From Bacteroidota bacterium (GTDB lineage Bacteria; Bacteroidota; Ignavibacteria; Palsa-1295), in the NCBI GenBank assembly GCA_021324735.1, contig JAJPIO010000009.1, positions 124,001 to 188,000 on the forward strand: a stretch of 64,000 bases of DNA, in the 5' to 3' direction. Shown piece by piece: positions 17,845 to 48,679 of the stretch (position 1 is the stretch's first letter; every line of letters starts with the position of its first letter). Under the pieces are notes generated by a model that was not told the origin of the DNA, ran no database searches, and worked only from the letters and a program-made list of their open reading frames with translations. The position numbers and the translations under genes are program-made.

Positions 17845-17872
17845 AGTAAATTGGAATGACGCGCTCGAAATT

Positions 17873-17908
17873 GCACAATTTACGCTAAGTCTGTTGCATA
17901 TTTGTTAC
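17873..17908. repeat. 36-nt direct repeat, left copy
   Basis: gcacaatttacgctaagtctgttgcatatttgttac; 34/36 identical to 48580-48615. Confidence 0.9.
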
Positions 17909-17922
17909 ATTCCCGTAACGGG

Positions 17923-17965: not shown

Positions 17966-17993
17966 GCGCACCCGTAGGGACTCGAACCCCAAA
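17966..17993. repeat. Left attachment-site core (att), a 3' fragment of tRNA-Arg
   Basis: gcgcacccgtagggactcgaaccccaaa, exact 28-nt match to 48652-48679, which forms the 3' end of the intact tRNA-Arg. Confidence 0.9.
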
Positions 17994-18239: not shown

Positions 18240-19268
18240 ATGGCAGTACGATTAGCACAACGACGGCTACCGAGTGGGAAAATTGGCTTGTACCTTGTGA
18301 CGACGATCAATGGTCGCCGCAATTTCGAATCGCTTCGCATGACGCTTCCGCCCGACCGAACCGGCAAGCGAGAAATGCTGGAACTCGCGCACGAGATTAA
18401 GGCGAGACGCGAGATCGAAATTCAAAGCGCTCAGTATGGGATCATTCCGAAGTTCAAGCAGGAACAGGATTTCCTATCCTACTTTGAAGAGCTATCTAAG
18501 ACCCGTCATAAGACCTGGAACACCGTCTTACTCCATCTTAAAGACTTTGCGCCCCGTGAATTACCCTTTAAGCAGATCACGCAACATTGGCTGAACGACT
18601 TTCAGGAGTTCATCTTGAAGCGGGTAGGGGCGAACTCCGCCAACGTGTACCTCCACAAGATTAATGCTGCCTTGAACCGAGCGGTGAAGGACGGCATTAT
18701 TCTCGCCAATCCCTGCGAGCGGATCGATATTGTAAAGACGAAGCCGACGGAACGGACCTTCCTGACGCTCGAGGAAGTGCAGCGGCTTGCGAATACCCCG
18801 ACCAAGCACACGGAGATCAAACGGGCATTCCTTTTTTCGTGCTTTACCGGTCTTCGATTATCTGATGTGAAACGCCTCACGCGCCGTGAGATCGTAGGCG
18901 ATCAGCTTCAATTCCGGCAGAAGAAGACTGGTGGCTTTGAATACCTGCCCCTAACGACAAGCGCCTTGCAACTGATCGAACCGTTGCCCGCAAGTGATGA
19001 GGAAACGCTGTTCAAGCTGCCGAAAAGCGAGGGCGGCCTTTGGACGCATCTTCAGGTGTGGGTCACCCGGGCGGGGATCACGAAACACGTTTCCTTCCAT
19101 GTCGCCCGTCATACGTTCGCCACGCTGGCCCTTACCCACATGAAGGACCTTTACATGGTGAGCAAACTCTTAGGCCACAAGGACATCAAGCATACCCAGA
19201 TTTACGCGAAGATCGTGGACGACCGAAAACGGGAAGCGGTGTCCCTCTTACCGCAGATAACACTCTGA
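18240..19268 (+). CDS. Tyrosine recombinase / phage-type integrase
   Basis: SAM-like N-domain and catalytic motifs LFSCFTGLRLSDVKRL, HVSFHVARHTFATLAL, KLLGHKDIKHTQIYAKI. Confidence 0.95.
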   Translation: MAVRLAQRRLPSGKIGLYLVTTINGRRNFESLRMTLPPDRTGKREMLELAHEIKARREIEIQSAQYGIIPKFKQEQDFLSYFEELSKTRHKTWNTVLLHLKDFAPRELPFKQITQHWLNDFQEFILKRVGANSANVYLHKINAALNRAVKDGIILANPCERIDIVKTKPTERTFLTLEEVQRLANTPTKHTEIKRAFLFSCFTGLRLSDVKRLTRREIVGDQLQFRQKKTGGFEYLPLTTSALQLIEPLPASDEETLFKLPKSEGGLWTHLQVWVTRAGITKHVSFHVARHTFATLALTHMKDLYMVSKLLGHKDIKHTQIYAKIVDDRKREAVSLLPQITL

Positions 19269-19325: not shown

Positions 19326-19331
19326 ACTTTA

Positions 19332-20174
19332 GTGCTCTCTTCTATGCTGACTGCTGAACAACAGAAACGACTAGACCAAGACTATCTCGAGTATATTGAC
19401 ATTCGGTGCGAAGGCCGTGAAAACGCTGGCGAGTGCTTTGCTGAACTTCAAATGCTTGCACACGAGAATTATACCGATTACTGTTTGGAAATGATTACAG
19501 CGGAAGGAAAGATCTCAGGACGGAACAAAATCTTTCTCCTTCTTCAGAGCCACATGCGTTCTGAGCGTCTATATCCTTCTTTCAATTTTATCGTGCCAAT
19601 CATACAGCAATTCGTCGATAGCCTCCCTTCGTTTGATGAGAAGGTCACTTATCTTATGAATTTGCGAACGATCGCTGAAAGCGTAAATAAATATGAAGCG
19701 AATCATTGCTCTCAATGGATTAAGCGACGCATACATGGTCTTCGGTTAGAGGCAAAAACGTTCTCGGGAAAGACCGCAAGATCGGAGGTTAATCCTGCGA
19801 AGCGATCCGTTTACAAGTTGCCTAATGAGCAAACAGCCGAACCGCTTGCACGAGTGATGCACGCTGAAAGTGAAATTAAATGTTCGCTGCCTCCCATCCA
19901 ATGGATTGGGCCCAAGAACCTCCTTCTAGATGTATTCAACTTGCTCGGTCGCTTCAATCTGATCTCACCATTGTGTCTAGAAAATCGATTGGATTTAATT
20001 GTCGGTCATTTTGTGGATCGAGAGGGACAACCCTTTATTCGGAAGAATCTGCTGGAACTTGAGCGGATTACGAAAGACAATAAGCGACCGGAACATGCCG
20101 GACGCCCAAAGATGGGGCCAGCACTTGAAGCAGAACTGGTAAGGCTAATGAATGGACAATCGACCGAAGATTAA
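19332..20174 (+). CDS. Hypothetical protein of the integrase/replication module
   Basis: 280-aa ORF between integrase and Xis-like genes; C-terminal IQWIGPKNLLLDVFNLLGRFNLISPL...FIRKNLLELERI is only faintly reminiscent of RteC-type element regulators. Confidence 0.6.
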   Translation: MLSSMLTAEQQKRLDQDYLEYIDIRCEGRENAGECFAELQMLAHENYTDYCLEMITAEGKISGRNKIFLLLQSHMRSERLYPSFNFIVPIIQQFVDSLPSFDEKVTYLMNLRTIAESVNKYEANHCSQWIKRRIHGLRLEAKTFSGKTARSEVNPAKRSVYKLPNEQTAEPLARVMHAESEIKCSLPPIQWIGPKNLLLDVFNLLGRFNLISPLCLENRLDLIVGHFVDREGQPFIRKNLLELERITKDNKRPEHAGRPKMGPALEAELVRLMNGQSTED

Positions 20175-20272
20175 AAGTTTATTGGAATTGCTTGCGTGCT
20201 CTTGTTCCAATAGGATTCCAAGGTTTTGTTATCCCATTTTTGCAGTGCCATTGCAAACAACGGTACACAAAA

Positions 20273-20590
20273 ATGAAGAAGGACCAAGAGATAATCGAAA
20301 AGATAGACCAGCTACAAAAGACGGTTGAGGGTACTAAAGACAAAATACTGAACTTCACTGAAGCAGCGACGTACCTTCGGCTCTCGAAGTCCTACCTATA
20401 CAAACTCACATCGAGGAAGGAAATCCCGCATCTTAAGCCTGGCGGTAAGTTGGTCTACTTCCGCCAGTCTGATCTCGACAAGTGGTTGCTTCAGCGACCG
20501 GTTGCCTCACGCTCGCAGATCGAGCAACAAGTTTGGAAGTCGAAAAACGGTCGCCCTCAATACAGCGGAATGATAGGAGTGAGCCGATGA
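20273..20590 (+). CDS. Excisionase/MerR-like helix-turn-helix protein
   Basis: MKKDQEIIEKIDQ...LNFTEAATYLRLSKSYLYKLTSRKEIPHLKPGGKLVYFRQSDLDKWLLQ; ORF extends upstream to 20192. Confidence 0.8.
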   Translation: MKKDQEIIEKIDQLQKTVEGTKDKILNFTEAATYLRLSKSYLYKLTSRKEIPHLKPGGKLVYFRQSDLDKWLLQRPVASRSQIEQQVWKSKNGRPQYSGMIGVSR

Positions 20591-21627
20591 GCGAGCCGTT
20601 AGGATCATCCTTGCTACTACCGAGATCGGAATTCAGACTCACATGGAGTGATCTGAATGACATCGACGTGCAAGAATCGCCGATGTTGTGGGAAGGCTTC
20701 CTCCCGAATAGGGAGATTGCGCTGCTGGCTGGTGTCGGCGGCTACGGTAAATCGACGTTGGTCCGTCAGCTTTCAATGGCGATCACCGCAGGAGAATCAA
20801 CCTTCCTTGGGCGGCGGCTCAATCCTGTTCACCGTCGGGTAATTTATGTCTCGTGTGAAGATGGCGCCAAGAAGACCGCTCGAATTGTCCAAAAGCAAAG
20901 AACGAAGGGAAGTCCAGGATTGGTCTTTGTATTTGCATCCCAGCTTTCGCTCGGTGAGGCGATTGAAGAGATTAATCAAGAGATGTATCTGGATAGTGGC
21001 ACGGATATGATCGTTATCGATTCGCTGGGTAACTTATTCGAGGGCGACCAAAACAGTAACAGCGATGCCCAGAAATTCTACAGCAAGTTCAGTTGGTTCG
21101 CCGAACATTCGCTGGTACTCTTTCTTCATCATGTGAGAAAAAGTAATCACGCAAGCACTCCTGATCAGGTGAATATTCAGGGTGCCGGCGCCTTCGTACA
21201 ACGAGCTCGGGCGGTTCTCATGCTCACCGGTGACAGACACGATACCGATCGTTATCTTCATATGGAGAAGGAGAACGACGTTTCGGACGAATTTAAGTAC
21301 GATGCGCTGGTCCTGGACTTCAACCTGAAGCAAAAGCTTTACTCTTCCGACGGTGAGACAAAGCCCATATCCGAGATTAACCGTCCAGTGCAGCCTCTGA
21401 CCGACTTAGGTTCGTTATTTCGCGAGGGTGAAACGGAGTTGTCGGCGGGCGATCTTGTGACTCGAATCATGATCAAATTCAGTATTAAGAAGCGAGCAGC
21501 GAAGGAACGGCTCAAGGCGAGCGGACTGACTAAAGTGCGTCATGGGTGGTACGCTAGACCGTCCGCAGAAAGCACCAAAGTGCAGAAAGTGCAAAGTGCA
21601 CGAAGTGCAGAAAGTGCAGTCGATTAA
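20587..21627 (+). CDS. AAA family (RepA/AAA_25-like) P-loop ATPase
   Basis: LLAGVGGYGKSTLVRQLSMAITAG (Walker A), DMIVIDSL (Walker B), VLFLHHVRKSNHASTPDQVNIQGAGAFVQRARAVLML. Start MSEPLGSSLLLPRSEF overlaps the upstream stop. Confidence 0.8.
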   Translation: MSEPLGSSLLLPRSEFRLTWSDLNDIDVQESPMLWEGFLPNREIALLAGVGGYGKSTLVRQLSMAITAGESTFLGRRLNPVHRRVIYVSCEDGAKKTARIVQKQRTKGSPGLVFVFASQLSLGEAIEEINQEMYLDSGTDMIVIDSLGNLFEGDQNSNSDAQKFYSKFSWFAEHSLVLFLHHVRKSNHASTPDQVNIQGAGAFVQRARAVLMLTGDRHDTDRYLHMEKENDVSDEFKYDALVLDFNLKQKLYSSDGETKPISEINRPVQPLTDLGSLFREGETELSAGDLVTRIMIKFSIKKRAAKERLKASGLTKVRHGWYARPSAESTKVQKVQSARSAESAVD

Positions 21628-21801
21628 CCCTAAATCGTCCGAAAGTGCAGCGAGAAACGATACAAAGTGATACGAAATCGACTACTGAATTTGCTCCGAA
21701 TCTTCAAATACTGTGCGAAATAGCCACTTGGGGGAATCGGCGACATCGGAAAGTGTAGTGGACAGTATCAGTTCGCCGCACTGCCTGCACTTTTGCACTT
21801 T
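21577..21801. repeat. Iteron-like array of AAAGTGCA octamers
   Basis: AAAGTGCA at 21577, 21586, 21593, 21611 and 21642, GAAGTGCA at 21602, and two inverted TGCACTTT at 21786 and 21794. Confidence 0.6.
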
Positions 21802-21856
21802 GATCCCTGCTTTGATACCTATTCAGCCGAAATATGTGTTTACTAGTGTCTGAATC

Positions 21857-23140
21857 ATGATGACCAGCAGAATACAAGAGGTAAGTTTTCGAAGTCTCAC
21901 CAAGGCCCAGAACTTCTCGCGCGACACGCGACACGGACTTCACTCGTATCCAGCGCGTTTGCTTCCCAATATTCCCTCATACTTTTTCAATTCGGGTATT
22001 CTTGATCGACCTGGGATAATACTAGATCCCTTCGCGGGGTCTGGCACTGTCCTTTTAGAATCCGCACTGGCCGGACATGAGGTTCTCGGTGCTGAAATTA
22101 ATCCATTGGCAACCTTAATTACCGAGGTGAAGCTTTCAAAATTGAACGCGGCAGAGCTTCGCGAGGCGAATTCATTCTTAAAGCGAATAATCCGAGACGA
22201 ACCTAGTGGCGAGTTACCTGAACTCCCAAACATTGATCATTGGTACTATAAGCACGTGCAAAGGCAGCTCCAGTGTATTTTCGAGGCAATACGCAAGATC
22301 TCTGTGCGAAGGGTCCGCAGGTTCTTCCTCCTATCATTCTCCACTCTGGTCCGAAATGTTAGTTTAGCAGATCCGCGCTTGTCCGTTCCGGTTCGCTTAA
22401 AAGAAGAGCAGTATTCCGAAGGGCACGTTTTTCGGGCAAGTACTGCGAAGCGTTTGAGGAGATTGAAGAGAATAAACGTGCGGAGGGTTTTTGAGGAGAT
22501 CGTTGAAGGCAATATTGCAAGAATTGAAGCTTCAAAATTATTGAAAGCGAACTTCCATGGAATAGCGAACTCTGTAGATTCGATTGTCACGTTTTGTGAC
22601 AAAAAGAATTTACTTGGGAAAGTAGATGCTGTCATTACTTCGCCCCCATATTGCGGCGCGCAGAAATACATTCGCGCAACTTCCCTGCAGTTATACTGGC
22701 TTGAGCTGGTGAATCAAAAAAAGATTACAAGGCTTCATTCTGCTAGTCTTGGCAGGGAACACTTTCCGGTGAGAGAATACGAGACTCTTCATAAGACAGG
22801 AATAGATGAAGCGGATCAGCTTTTGGAGTCAATTCATCAAGAGTATCCACTCAGGGCACATATAGCCGCAAAATTTCTTACAGAGATGTCACAGGCACTT
22901 TTCAACATTTCCCAATGCCTAAAAGCTGATGGCCATCTCGTTCTCGTCATTGGGAATAACACTATCCGTGGCCGCGAATTTCCGACTAGCGAGTATGTGG
23001 CTGCACTTGCAGGAATGCAGGGGTTCAAAGTGGAATCTCACTTCATCGATGACATACGTTCGCGTGGACTTATGACGGCAAGGAACAAGACAGCGAGCAT
23101 CATAAACGCTGAACACGTGTTCGTCTTCCGTAGAAAATAG
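21857..23140 (+). CDS. Amino-MTase (N4/N6-type) DNA methyltransferase-like protein
   Basis: DPFAGSGTVLLESALAGHEVLGAEINPLA (SAM-binding motif) and DAVITSPPYCGAQKYIRATSLQLYWLEL (SPPY catalytic motif). Confidence 0.82.
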   Translation: MMTSRIQEVSFRSLTKAQNFSRDTRHGLHSYPARLLPNIPSYFFNSGILDRPGIILDPFAGSGTVLLESALAGHEVLGAEINPLATLITEVKLSKLNAAELREANSFLKRIIRDEPSGELPELPNIDHWYYKHVQRQLQCIFEAIRKISVRRVRRFFLLSFSTLVRNVSLADPRLSVPVRLKEEQYSEGHVFRASTAKRLRRLKRINVRRVFEEIVEGNIARIEASKLLKANFHGIANSVDSIVTFCDKKNLLGKVDAVITSPPYCGAQKYIRATSLQLYWLELVNQKKITRLHSASLGREHFPVREYETLHKTGIDEADQLLESIHQEYPLRAHIAAKFLTEMSQALFNISQCLKADGHLVLVIGNNTIRGREFPTSEYVAALAGMQGFKVESHFIDDIRSRGLMTARNKTASIINAEHVFVFRRK

Positions 23141-23145
23141 CCGCA

Positions 23146-24090
23146 ATGGGTGCTACGTTAGAAGAACAGATTAAGACCCTCAGTGCACTAGCTTGGGAGG
23201 AGAAGGCAAGTGAACCTCATCTTTCCGAGTGGTTATCTAATTTTGACGATTCTCGGATTGCGACAATCGACCTTCAGAGGCAGCACGCTCTCTTCCTTCT
23301 TTCGAAGTTCATGTTTTTTGGCGATCGTGAGATTAGAGAACTTCTCAAGAGCTTATATCGGGATCTGTTCAAGTACTCGATTGTGGCGAATATCCGAGCC
23401 TCGAATGGCAACACTACCGATGAAGCATTCTTGAAAGCAAGATTCAAGATTGAGCAAGAGAATACTCGGTTTCTCGGTGTGGGCAATCCATCCGAAAGCG
23501 GGCCCCATTTGCTTTACTACTTTCGGCAAGAGAATCGATTGCCAAAGAGCTTGTTCATCCATTCACACCGGATAATATCGCGAAGCGGAACGAGGTCAAA
23601 CCCCAGCGCACATTTAACTGAGCCCTCTGTCACCCGCTATATCTTAATTGACGATTTGTGTGGGAGTGGCCAACAAATCGAGGAATACGCGAAGGATCTT
23701 GTTGGTGAGATTCGAAGCATAGATCCAACAATCGAGATCCACTATTTTGTGCTCTTTGGGAGAAAGGAATCACTTGAACAGGCAACGGCAACAGTCGGCT
23801 TTAACTCTGCAAAGGCTGTCATGGAATTGACTTCCAGTTTTCAAGCTTTTTCAACCGATTCACGTATTTTCCAGACTGGCTCAGTGGTCGATTCGAGCTT
23901 AGTCAAAAGGTTTGCGGAGCATTACGGCCAAATCCTCTGGCCGAGCAATCCATTGGGATATAGAGATGGTCAGTATTTATTAGGGTTCCATCATAATACG
24001 CCGGATAATACTCTGCCGATCTTTTGGTACGACGAGGACGGTTCAACCTGGAACCCGATTTTTAGAAGGTATCCGAAGCTCTACGATTAG
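23146..24090 (+). CDS. Phosphoribosyltransferase-like protein of PRTase-CE (conflict-system) type
   Basis: PRPP-loop-like YILIDDLCGSGQQIEEYAKDLVGEI and C-terminal GQYLLGFHHNTPDNTLPIFWYDEDG; first gene downstream of the MTase, 5-nt gap. Confidence 0.68.
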   Translation: MGATLEEQIKTLSALAWEEKASEPHLSEWLSNFDDSRIATIDLQRQHALFLLSKFMFFGDREIRELLKSLYRDLFKYSIVANIRASNGNTTDEAFLKARFKIEQENTRFLGVGNPSESGPHLLYYFRQENRLPKSLFIHSHRIISRSGTRSNPSAHLTEPSVTRYILIDDLCGSGQQIEEYAKDLVGEIRSIDPTIEIHYFVLFGRKESLEQATATVGFNSAKAVMELTSSFQAFSTDSRIFQTGSVVDSSLVKRFAEHYGQILWPSNPLGYRDGQYLLGFHHNTPDNTLPIFWYDEDGSTWNPIFRRYPKLYD

Positions 24091-24091
24091 A

Positions 24092-26068
24092 ATGCAAACG
24101 CTAAATCCCTTTTCCTATCTTGCTGCGAGCGACCTTAGTGATGCGCAGATTTTTGATTATTGGGTAGATGTGCCTGCGTGGGAAGGCTTGCTAAAGCAAA
24201 AACTCAATCCGTTAAGCGCTCGGCCCGTAATTCTGTTCGGTGGGAAGGGAAGTGGTAAGACGCATTTACTTCGTCATCGTTCGTTCGGAATTCAGAAGCG
24301 ACGTTATTCAAACTTGCTAGCTGGGCTTTCCGCTGATGGCTATCTCGGGATCTATCTGCGGTTTGGAAGCCTGAACGCAACACGGTTTAAGGGCAAAGGT
24401 GAGAGCGAGGAAGTGTGGCAACAGGTGTTCGCTTACTATCTTGAGCTTCTCTTCGGTGAACAACTCATTGAGATCGTACGCGAGATAGTCGATCAAGAGA
24501 ACGTAAATGACCAGCAAGTGAGGCAGTTCATTGCGGAAGTCTTAAGTCTTTTTGATTCTGAACGGCATTCACCTCCGAACACCTTGGTCGGGATTATCGA
24601 GTACTTTAGGAATTTGAGGAGGGCAATCGACAGGGAAGTAAATAATCGAATCTTCAACAGGAGTCTGAATATTGCAGTTGACGTGTCGTCTGGTAGTATT
24701 ATTTTTGGGGTTCCAGAGATTATTGCGAGGGCATTGCCCATACTCGACAAGGTCAGATTTGTCTACATGCTTGATGAGTTTGAAGAGCTAGATCCACAAC
24801 AACAGCAGCATGTAAACGCATTAATTCGGGGCCGTTCAACTCGGACCACATTTCACATTGGATCTCGTCTTCATGGGATAGCGACGTATGGCGTTCCAAG
24901 CTCAGGCGAAGAAAACCGAGCGGGAAGCGAGTTCGACACGGTATTTCTCGACAACATACTTAGGGGACAGAAGAAGGAGTATTCGCGGTTCGCTAAGAAG
25001 TTGACGGAAAAAAGGCTTCAGATCGCTGGTTACACAGCAACCGATCCAGCGCTTTGGTTTGAAGTCCAAACTGAAGAGCAAGTACTGAATCAAATTCTTT
25101 CAAAAGAGAGAGAGACCCTTCCCAAGAGCCTCATGCGCGTGAGATCCGCAGTTGCTCGGGCATTCGATGAAGAAATAGCAACGAAAGTAGTACACTCGCT
25201 CAGCGTCCCCCTACGACCGGATCTTGAAATAGCTAATACAGTATTATTCTATCGAAGGCTCGCGACATATAGGGGTACTTTTGACCCCGTTGCTGAAGCC
25301 GATCAGATTTGTCAGTCGCTTACAGAATTCTTGCAGGGACAGAAGAAGGGGAACGAGCATGAAAAGTTCTTAGATAAGTTCAAAGATGATGTTTGGGCCC
25401 AATTACTTCGAGACTACGATTTGCCGCAATTGTATCAAGGGTTTGCAGATTTTGTAACGATGTCCGAAGGACTTCCCAGAACCCTTCTTGGCATGTTAAA
25501 AAACATATTCGATTGGGCTACGTTTTATGGTGAGATGCCGTTTCAATCGACTAAGCGAATATCCTTACGAGCCCAACTGAAAGGAGTCCTGGAGACAGCA
25601 GAGTGGTTCAAGAAGGATGATAGAATGCTCGGCAAGAACGCCGAAATTATACTTGCGGCTATTGAGAATTTAGGAAATCTCTTTCGCGAGAATCGGTTCG
25701 CCGATCGGCCTTCCGAATGCTCCTTGATCACATTTGGGGTGGAGTATCCGCTTCTTCCCGCGCACGCACGACAGATGCTGAGAGAGGCAGAGCGGCTTTC
25801 TCTTCTGATACAAATTCCTCGCGGTCATAAGGATAAGAATTCTAAGAAGGTGCAGTATAAATACCAGTTGAATCGAACGCTTAGTCCTTTGTGGGGTCTT
25901 CCCGTTGGAAGAAGGGGGACATTAACTATACCTGTGGATGTGTTGGCTTCGCTGTTCAGCAATGATCGGGCGATCTTCAATAACTATATGCGAGACAAGC
26001 TTGCACGCTGGAATTTTCCTTTCCGGTCGACCTTTCGAAAGAAGGAGAACCAGCTCACCCTCGCTTAG
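24092..26068 (+). CDS. ORC/CDC6-like AAA ATPase
   Basis: PVILFGGKGSGKTHLLRHRSF (Walker A), VRFVYMLDEFEELDPQQQQHVNALIRGRSTRTTFHIGSRLHGIATYG (Walker B/sensor). 1-nt gap from the upstream gene. Confidence 0.72.
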   Translation: MQTLNPFSYLAASDLSDAQIFDYWVDVPAWEGLLKQKLNPLSARPVILFGGKGSGKTHLLRHRSFGIQKRRYSNLLAGLSADGYLGIYLRFGSLNATRFKGKGESEEVWQQVFAYYLELLFGEQLIEIVREIVDQENVNDQQVRQFIAEVLSLFDSERHSPPNTLVGIIEYFRNLRRAIDREVNNRIFNRSLNIAVDVSSGSIIFGVPEIIARALPILDKVRFVYMLDEFEELDPQQQQHVNALIRGRSTRTTFHIGSRLHGIATYGVPSSGEENRAGSEFDTVFLDNILRGQKKEYSRFAKKLTEKRLQIAGYTATDPALWFEVQTEEQVLNQILSKERETLPKSLMRVRSAVARAFDEEIATKVVHSLSVPLRPDLEIANTVLFYRRLATYRGTFDPVAEADQICQSLTEFLQGQKKGNEHEKFLDKFKDDVWAQLLRDYDLPQLYQGFADFVTMSEGLPRTLLGMLKNIFDWATFYGEMPFQSTKRISLRAQLKGVLETAEWFKKDDRMLGKNAEIILAAIENLGNLFRENRFADRPSECSLITFGVEYPLLPAHARQMLREAERLSLLIQIPRGHKDKNSKKVQYKYQLNRTLSPLWGLPVGRRGTLTIPVDVLASLFSNDRAIFNNYMRDKLARWNFPFRSTFRKKENQLTLA

Positions 26069-26070
26069 AT

Positions 26071-26997
26071 ATGGACTTTACCAAGTTCTTCAAAGAAGCG
26101 ATAGGCCCATCAGATCTAGGCGAACGGACTTATGATCTCTTCTTGTCAGGCTATACAAAAGCCAGCCGTGTTCGCGAGGTCTATGATCAGATCAATGCTA
26201 ATCGTAAGATTTGGGTCGTTGCCCCAGAATATAAGTTTACGAACTTAGATCTTCCCGCTGAGGAGAAGTTCATAGACGTCGAGCGGACTGAAAGCGCATT
26301 CATTCTAAGATTGTTTGAAGGTCTGTCCATCGACTTTAGTAATGTGAAGATATGTATTGACATTACTGGCATCTTGAGGCCACATCTGCTATTCATGCTC
26401 GCATTCTTCAAGAATAAGGGGTTGAAATCATTTGAGTGCGTCTATTCCGAACCTGAACACTATAGTGAGGCTGAAAACACAATTTTTTCAATGTCTGCAG
26501 CAACCGAGAATCGAGCAGTTCATGGCTTCGAAGGTAGTCATTTGCTCGCTGAGAAGAAGGATATGCTCGTTGTGTCCGTGGGATTTGAAGATGACCTAAT
26601 TGCTCGCATTGCCGATCACAAACCCGATAGTGACAAGTACTTCATTTTTGGTCTTCCATCCCATCGACCTGACATGTACCAGCAGAGCCTACTTCGCGCT
26701 AGTAACGTCAGAACTCAGGCTGACGATTATCGCCGTCGGCTGTTTGCACCTTCTAATGATCCGTTCGTCACAGCTAGTGTCCTTTCGGATTTGCTTGCGC
26801 CTCAGCTCCCCGATAGGAATGTTTATCTATCACCTGTTGGGACGAAGGCGCAAGCATTGGGTTTTGGTTTATTTTACGTTTGGAATTGCGAGCGAATGCC
26901 AGTTAGCATAGTTTATCCATTTTCGGATCAATATGCTCAAATAGACTCGACGGGAATGAGTCGAATTTGGCGATTCACAATCGAGCTTCCTAATTAG
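26071..26997 (+). CDS. Unknown protein, candidate sensor/effector of the four-gene operon
   Basis: 308-aa ORF starting 2 nt after the ATPase stop; Rossmann-like strand signatures VKICIDITGILRPHLLFMLAFF and NVYLSPVGTKAQALGFGLFYVW. Confidence 0.7.
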   Translation: MDFTKFFKEAIGPSDLGERTYDLFLSGYTKASRVREVYDQINANRKIWVVAPEYKFTNLDLPAEEKFIDVERTESAFILRLFEGLSIDFSNVKICIDITGILRPHLLFMLAFFKNKGLKSFECVYSEPEHYSEAENTIFSMSAATENRAVHGFEGSHLLAEKKDMLVVSVGFEDDLIARIADHKPDSDKYFIFGLPSHRPDMYQQSLLRASNVRTQADDYRRRLFAPSNDPFVTASVLSDLLAPQLPDRNVYLSPVGTKAQALGFGLFYVWNCERMPVSIVYPFSDQYAQIDSTGMSRIWRFTIELPN

Positions 26998-48459: not shown

Positions 48460-48579
48460 AAGAGCGTACTCGAACGCATAGGCGAAACATTAATATTTAG
48501 TAGTAAATTTACATCAAGTTGCAAGTCATAGTAATGTCGTCAAAGAGAAGCGGGTAGGTGCTCGATCACTAGAAATTTA

Positions 48580-48615
48580 GCACAATTTGCGCTTAGTCTG
48601 TTGCATATTTGTTAC
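48580..48615. repeat. 36-nt direct repeat, right copy
   Basis: gcacaatttgcgcttagtctgttgcatatttgttac; 34/36 identical to 17873-17908. Confidence 0.9.
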
Positions 48616-48651
48616 GCGCGGCAACCCAATCGTATGGGAAATAAGGACTTA

Positions 48652-48679
48652 GCGCACCCGTAGGGACTCGAACCCCAAA
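48652..48679. repeat. Right attachment-site core (att), within the intact tRNA-Arg 3' end
   Basis: Exact 28-nt match to 17966-17993. Confidence 0.9.

Follow-up and report, generated by a model that had tools for sequence, protein, structure and literature searches.

Opposed GTGCA iterons at the 3' end of a RepA-type ATPase gene, a likely replication origin of a tRNA-Arg island in a Bacteroidota bacterium

The stretch of DNA analysed herein, called the window throughout, comprises 64,000 nucleotides of contig JAJPIO010000009.1 of a Bacteroidota bacterium (assembly GCA_021324735.1), and its features are collected in Table 1. A 28-bp sequence of the tRNA-Arg(ACG) 3' end is exactly repeated on the left and on the right, and judging by the sequence the two copies probably bound an integrative island of about 30.7 kb in this tRNA gene. 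In fact the tyrosine integrase gene lies near such a direct repeat of the tRNA 3' end, the arrangement by which tRNA islands are recognised. A search for 16-nt direct repeats over 17.8-34 kb gave no att site, because the right copy lies at 48.65 kb, and a search for the empty site in the genus gave no clear case, the queried stretch returning only one short match. A third near-copy of the att sequence was seen 31.9 kb further left (G000:C15:110026-110050), and both att copies have on their left a similar sequence of about 50 bp (17866-17920 and 48571-48625), which together suggest tandem islands at one tRNA. Directly after the repeats described below, a methylase-like gene, a PRTase-CE gene, a gene for an ORC-CDC6-like ATPase and a CARF6-like gene stand in a row (21857-26997), which is probably a conflict or defence cassette; the cargo near the repeats, which also includes a C5 methyltransferase, suggests a defence load.

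Table 1. Features of the island and of the repeat cluster, in window coordinates
Feature	Position	Strand	Remark
Probable att site, copy of tRNA-Arg 3' end, left end of island	17966..17993	.	28-bp exact repeat with 48652-48679
Tyrosine integrase gene of island	18240..19268	+	Phage_integrase 2.6e-19
Hypothetical protein gene, 280 aa, between integrase and HTH_17 genes	19332..20174	+	no Pfam match; L001 has a hypothetical gene at the same place by gene order
HTH_17 small protein gene (Xis/HTH-like), directly upstream of AAA gene	20273..20590	+	Pfam HTH_17 8e-14; PHROG excisionase/HTH matches
AAA_25/RepA-type (RSF1010 RepA-like) ATPase gene, 346 aa, predicted initiator helicase	20587..21627	+	Pfam AAA_25 1.3e-27; ATG at 20587, stop ends 21627
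AAAGTGCA copies	21577, 21586, 21593, 21611, 21642	+	
GAAGTGCA copy	21602	+	
TGCACTTT copies	21786, 21794	inverted	
Direct arm, five GTGCA iterons, (A/G)AAGTGCA, spacing 9,7,9,9	21577..21618	+	inside AAA gene 3' end; 0/2000 shuffles
Sixth direct AAAGTGCA	21642..21649	+	directly past stop codon
GATACAAAGTGATAC, two GATAC at 10-nt spacing (GATAC-N5-GATAC)	21659..21673	+	15 nt, identical at L001 counterpart position
Inverted GTATC, inner partner of GATAC pair	21765..21769	-	same order in L001
Inverted arm, three GTGCR iterons, spacing 9,8, including two TGCACTTT	21777..21801	-	non-coding
Probable att site in tRNA-Arg(ACG) 3' end, right end of island	48652..48679	.	

The AAA gene was labelled RepA-like in an earlier note made from the letters of the window, and the label is borne out by the family profile, whose best match in the PDB is RSF1010 RepA (1g8y, 1.8e-18); by this comparison the ATPase core is kin to RSF1010 RepA. 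Pfam matches nothing in the C-terminal region of the window protein. An AF2 model gives this region (residues about 271-323) a winged-helix-like arrangement, with three helices and two strands, at low confidence; as the model was built from a two-row alignment and reached a pLDDT of 38, it was left out of fold searching. In some relatives a C-terminal HTH is found by Pfam, namely HTH_38 in locus L004, with weaker matches below the curated cut-off in L041 (HTH_24) and L065 (RepL). Considering the Pfam result for the window protein and the low confidence of the model, we only infer that its C-terminal HTH or winged helix reads the repeats at the end of its own gene. The HTH_17 protein encoded directly upstream could possibly act as a co-factor of the AAA protein.

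The repeats straddle the stop codon of the AAA gene, half of the cluster being within the gene and half directly 3' of it. The five AAAGTGCA and one GAAGTGCA in direct orientation and the two inverted TGCACTTT, which the earlier note placed at 21577-21801, are all present at those positions and in those orientations, while the unit is better written as GTGCA with a period of 7-9 nt, in five direct and three inverted copies, the third inverted one being GTGCG (21777-21781). In the whole window AAAGTGCA occurs 10 times, 7 of them within these 225 nt, where 100 shuffles of the window give a mean of 2.2 and a maximum of 5. Moreover, the 300 nt at 21526-21825 contain 57 direct and 36 inverted exact 7-mer pairs, which make 93 where 5.3 are expected; this number was reached by none of 2000 shuffles, and the area is the top-ranking 300-nt stretch in the window. 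The pattern GTGCA-N4-GTGCA-N2-GTGCA has its single occurrence in the 3.55-Mb genome here. The exact 17-mer AAAGTGCAGAAAGTGCA was also searched in IMG/VR, where 28 contigs matched, all of them apparently chance or unrelated coding matches that form no clusters.

Another Kapaibacterium MAG carries the sole close relative found, locus L001, with 66% amino acid identity over the best segment. The searches in genus and family gave one relative at 65% and one at 42%, the rest being at most 34%, and no close relative was found among viral contigs. The gene order of L001 is that of the window, namely integrase, hypothetical gene, small HTH gene and AAA gene, while the cargo differs (C5 methyltransferase). 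At the equivalent place L001 has an array of five direct GTGCR (spacing 9,8,9,9) followed by GATACAAAGTGATAC; beyond a spacer come GTATC and the inverted arm, whose five copies are spaced 9,9,8,9. The earlier note had proposed a search for its octamer at this position in related elements. AAGTGCA has no copy in L001, but the GTGCA core, the number of copies, the 8-9 nt spacing, the inversion of the second arm and the GATAC pair all recur there, and GATACAAAGTGATAC is identical in the two elements despite a nucleotide identity of 66% over the AAA gene. The two arms of L001 match one another over 46 nt with four mismatches, with an alignment score of 76, against 24-54 when they are aligned with the window arms. 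The L001 arms are thus more alike mutually than they are to those of the window, which indicates that the arms change together within an element.

To see how far the arrangement recurs, RepA-type AAA loci were gathered by protein homology only, from the class and the phylum as well as from plasmids and phages; the additional loci of plasmids and phages were chosen by hand from the match lists so as to cover diverse taxa, before their 3' ends had been looked at. In 40 loci the excess of repeats peaks at the stop codon, where 48% of the loci beat all of 60 shuffles, compared with about 5% at most other offsets. In the enlarged set significant 3'-end repeats are found in 27 of 50 RepA-type loci, against 3 of 50 gene interiors and 1 of 22 RadA controls, counts that include some loci related to one another. 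The other 23 RepA-type loci, three sampled mycobacteriophages among them, have no significant 3'-end repeats. The sole positive control, L081, carries inverted GTCATTGCGAGG repeats after its radA stop, probably a dispersed intergenic repeat. The 3'-end repeats also occur on stand-alone replicons, for example on plasmids of Methylobacterium, Caenibius, Tsukamurella, Ca. Promineifilum and Caldicellulosiruptor, and in the phages Nike and Diane.

The sequence of the repeat differs between elements while its position at the 3' end of the AAA gene recurs. The unit is CGAACG in L004, GATTAACC in L041, AGTAGAAT in L051, AGTTTCC in L059, TGGCACAG in L075 and TGTTCAC in L078; on the plasmids it is GCGCAACAA in Methylobacterium (L085), TTGCGGAAG in Caenibius (L104), CTGTACAG in Ca. 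Promineifilum (L105) and of the GTGATGAAA type in Tsukamurella (L107), and in phage Nike (L086) it is TGTCACACC. The maximum-count 8-mer test served only to list such motifs, being weaker than the pair-count test, chiefly in AT-rich loci, and the family profile was too diverse for a pattern scan of viruses. Two further observations belong here. The Anabaena plasmid pANACY.03 (L106) has a strong array inside its AAA gene, about 500 nt before the stop, with 116 pairs where 9.8 are expected. Besides, a CCTATAG/CTATAGG core is seen near the repeats in L051, L064, L065, L068, L069 and L085, and in L064, L065, L069 and L085 it sits between the direct and the inverted iterons. A CTATAG-like centre is enriched near the stops (11 near and 12 far, about sixfold by length), partly owing to one clade, and it is absent from the window; such a core could possibly be a melting centre.

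Repeats that lie partly in a gene may also be a coding artefact, that is, a low-complexity protein tail whose DNA repeats incidentally. The direct arm does encode KVQKVQSARSAESA, and relatives have tails such as VTPVTP, SPEV or QVMQVMQ. However, frame 0 is used by the first two direct copies (KVQ KVQ) and frame +1 by the three after them (SA..), the sixth is past the stop, and the inverted arm is non-coding; since two frames are used and the repeats continue beyond the stop, they are a feature of the DNA and not a protein tail. The earlier note had reckoned with repeats that only encode a KVQ/SA tail and lack conservation as DNA, and neither is the case, for the frames run 0,0,1,1,1, copies follow the stop and the arrangement is conserved as DNA in L001. 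Moreover, the arrays of L041, L051, L075, L104 and L107 lie entirely, or nearly so, beyond the stop. A change found in the Squashvirus phage Fizzles is in accordance with this, where the unit TGTCACACC has become TGTCACAAG in both arms and, through a change of reading frame, the encoded tail has turned from VTPVTP into SQVSQV, so that the inverted DNA repeat is preserved and the protein is not. The frames in the window and the comparison with Fizzles refute the coding artefact, the probability of which is hardly appreciable.

The tails of the VTPVTP type in primase/helicase proteins of Nike, Hyperion, Fizzles, RubyRalph and others (L086, L137-L142) are themselves a translated inverted iteron array, and this array is likely the phage origin. 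Another natural experiment is offered by L065, whose ATPase core is nearest to that of L064 (76% vs 67%), whereas its C-terminal HTH is nearest to those of L068 and L069 (75% vs 42%). L065 bears the repeat of L068/L069, AGTCCAGA, and not that of L064, AAGTTATGC. As the repeats adjoin the DNA that encodes the HTH, linkage alone could explain this match of HTH and repeat.

A DNA element at this place might serve purposes other than replication. It might be an operator or autoregulatory site, to which the HTH_17 or the AAA protein binds and thereby controls the AAA gene or the cargo operon from 21857 on. In both the window and L001 the first cargo gene is separated from the AAA gene by the repeats, and a further binding protein is suggested by the GATAC pair, which is distinct from them. 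Nevertheless, a consensus scan of 21627-21857, which addresses promoters of the consensus type, found no promoter-like site; L064-L069, L079 and phage Nike carry their repeats within coding sequence, and another gene starts at the stop; and the genes that follow on the sampled plasmids are for the most part hypothetical and differ from one another. We therefore hold a regulatory site to be unlikely as the explanation of the repeats.

The arms could also form a hairpin in single-stranded DNA, as a long inverted repeat for lagging-strand priming, nicking or transfer in the manner of ssi or oriT sites. Folded as single strands, the repeat regions are far more stable than their shuffles (z -4.1 in the window and z -9.9 in L001), and several relatives (Nike, L079, L107) have inverted arms with a short loop; yet long inverted repeats would fold regardless, the arms in the window are imperfect and about 160 nt apart, the many-copy arrays of mixed order in L041 and L104 differ from simple hairpins, and there is no relaxase or nicking protein among the annotated neighbours. 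On balance a hairpin function seems quite improbable. The operon-like run shared by the integrase gene and the Xis-like HTH_17 gene brings to mind arm-type sites for integrase and excisionase, by which recombination would be controlled. Such sites are a very improbable explanation, considering that the nearest att copy (17966) is 3.6 kb away, that the repeats recur at neither att site, and that the same arrangement is present in phages and plasmids which have no annotated integrase in the stretch seen.

The conservation in L001, the nature of the repeats as DNA and their recurrence in about half of the RepA-type loci make a replication origin, which the earlier note had supposed next to a control locus, the best reading. 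More specifically, we consider it probable that the repeats are element-specific iterons which form the oriV of the integrative island and are read by the adjacent AAA_25/RepA-type initiator helicase. The window has a compact array of short direct repeats adjoining a rep gene, as iteron origins have. No DnaA box (TTATNCACA, with at most 1 mismatch) was found in 19326-22951, and an AT-rich unwinding region is not clear, the spacer between the arms being 53% AT compared with 49-54% around it, with 59% in its best 80-nt stretch. DnaA boxes are present in many, but not all, iteron-type origins. As neither such a box nor an AT-rich core was found, the locus is better said to work like an iteron origin than filed as a proven member of that class.

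As for the mechanism, the C-terminal HTH or winged-helix domain of the AAA_25/RepA-type protein would bind the GTGCA iterons in both opposed arms and so place hexamers of the protein there, two of them facing each other. Its RecA-type motor might then unwind the DNA, and the unwinding would let the excised circle of the island be copied.

The layout in kind, with iterons just past the gene of an initiator helicase, is already known. The Rep protein of SaPI, as far as it is described in PMC7581432, binds iterons just downstream of its gene through a C-terminal domain (Ubeda 2007 as cited in PMC7581432), and the island in the window resembles SaPI, by that description, in being mobile and in having an initiator helicase, a C-terminal DNA-binding domain (a low-confidence prediction in the window) and iterons directly downstream; binding as two hexamers, which we propose for the window, belongs to the likeness as well (PMC7581432). 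In contrast, and with SaPI Rep known here by description, the window has a RecA-type motor of the RSF1010-RepA/AAA_25 kind, part of its array overlaps the gene, and an AT-rich core is not apparent. In SCCmec, short AAGTG iterons lie past the helicase operon on its downstream side and are bound by the C-terminal domain of Cch2 (PMC7581432). AAGTG also lies within the octamer of the window, probably by chance, whereas Cch2, set apart by description, is likened by its authors to hexameric helicases of the MCM/DnaB type and unwinds 3'-5' (PMC7581432). The layout of SaPI and Cch2, recurrent repeats at or just past the 3' end of the helicase gene, is what the 27 of 50 loci display. In SGI1, replication requires the oriV, which lies directly downstream of rep (PMC7433901). 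Like the island in the window, SGI1 is an integrative island with int, xis and rep and with iterons at that place, but its initiator is of the RepA_C type, its iterons measure 17 bp, and it has AT-rich regions as well as a putative DnaA box (PMC7433901).

Among the IncQ plasmids, RSF1010 provides in its RepA the closest solved structure to the ATPase core of the window protein. Its iteron-binding initiator RepC, however, is encoded by a separate gene, whereas the helicase of the window appears to be fused to a C-terminal HTH, and the 3' end of the IncQ repA gene is free of repeats, unlike that of the AAA gene here. The O protein of phage lambda is not a helicase, and the lambda iterons lie mid-gene. 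As in the window, they are inside the coding sequence of their own binding protein (PMC11447400). A description of iterons at the 3' ends of AAA_25/RepA-type genes, or of the breadth of such an arrangement, was not found in the open-access literature searched, and within that literature the apparent novelty is this layout in the RepA-type/AAA_25 family and its breadth.

Taking the loci together, we put forward a broader proposal, in which our confidence falls somewhat below even, that islands, plasmids and phages of several phyla share a widespread kind of self-contained initiator that has yet to be named, the RepA-type helicase of the RecA fold with a C-terminal HTH. Each such initiator would have its own origin, of short iterons in two opposed arms, in or just past the 3' end of its gene, and the HTH and its sites would move between elements as one swappable specificity module. 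If this is true, there would be a simple rule for finding the origin and the specificity of poorly known mobile elements, which is to examine the RepA-type gene at its 3' end. Moreover, odd C-terminal tails of primase/helicase proteins such as KVQKVQ, VTPVTP and SPEVQNSP would be origin DNA rather than a protein function, and elements could switch their incompatibility through the swap of one short cassette of HTH and iterons.
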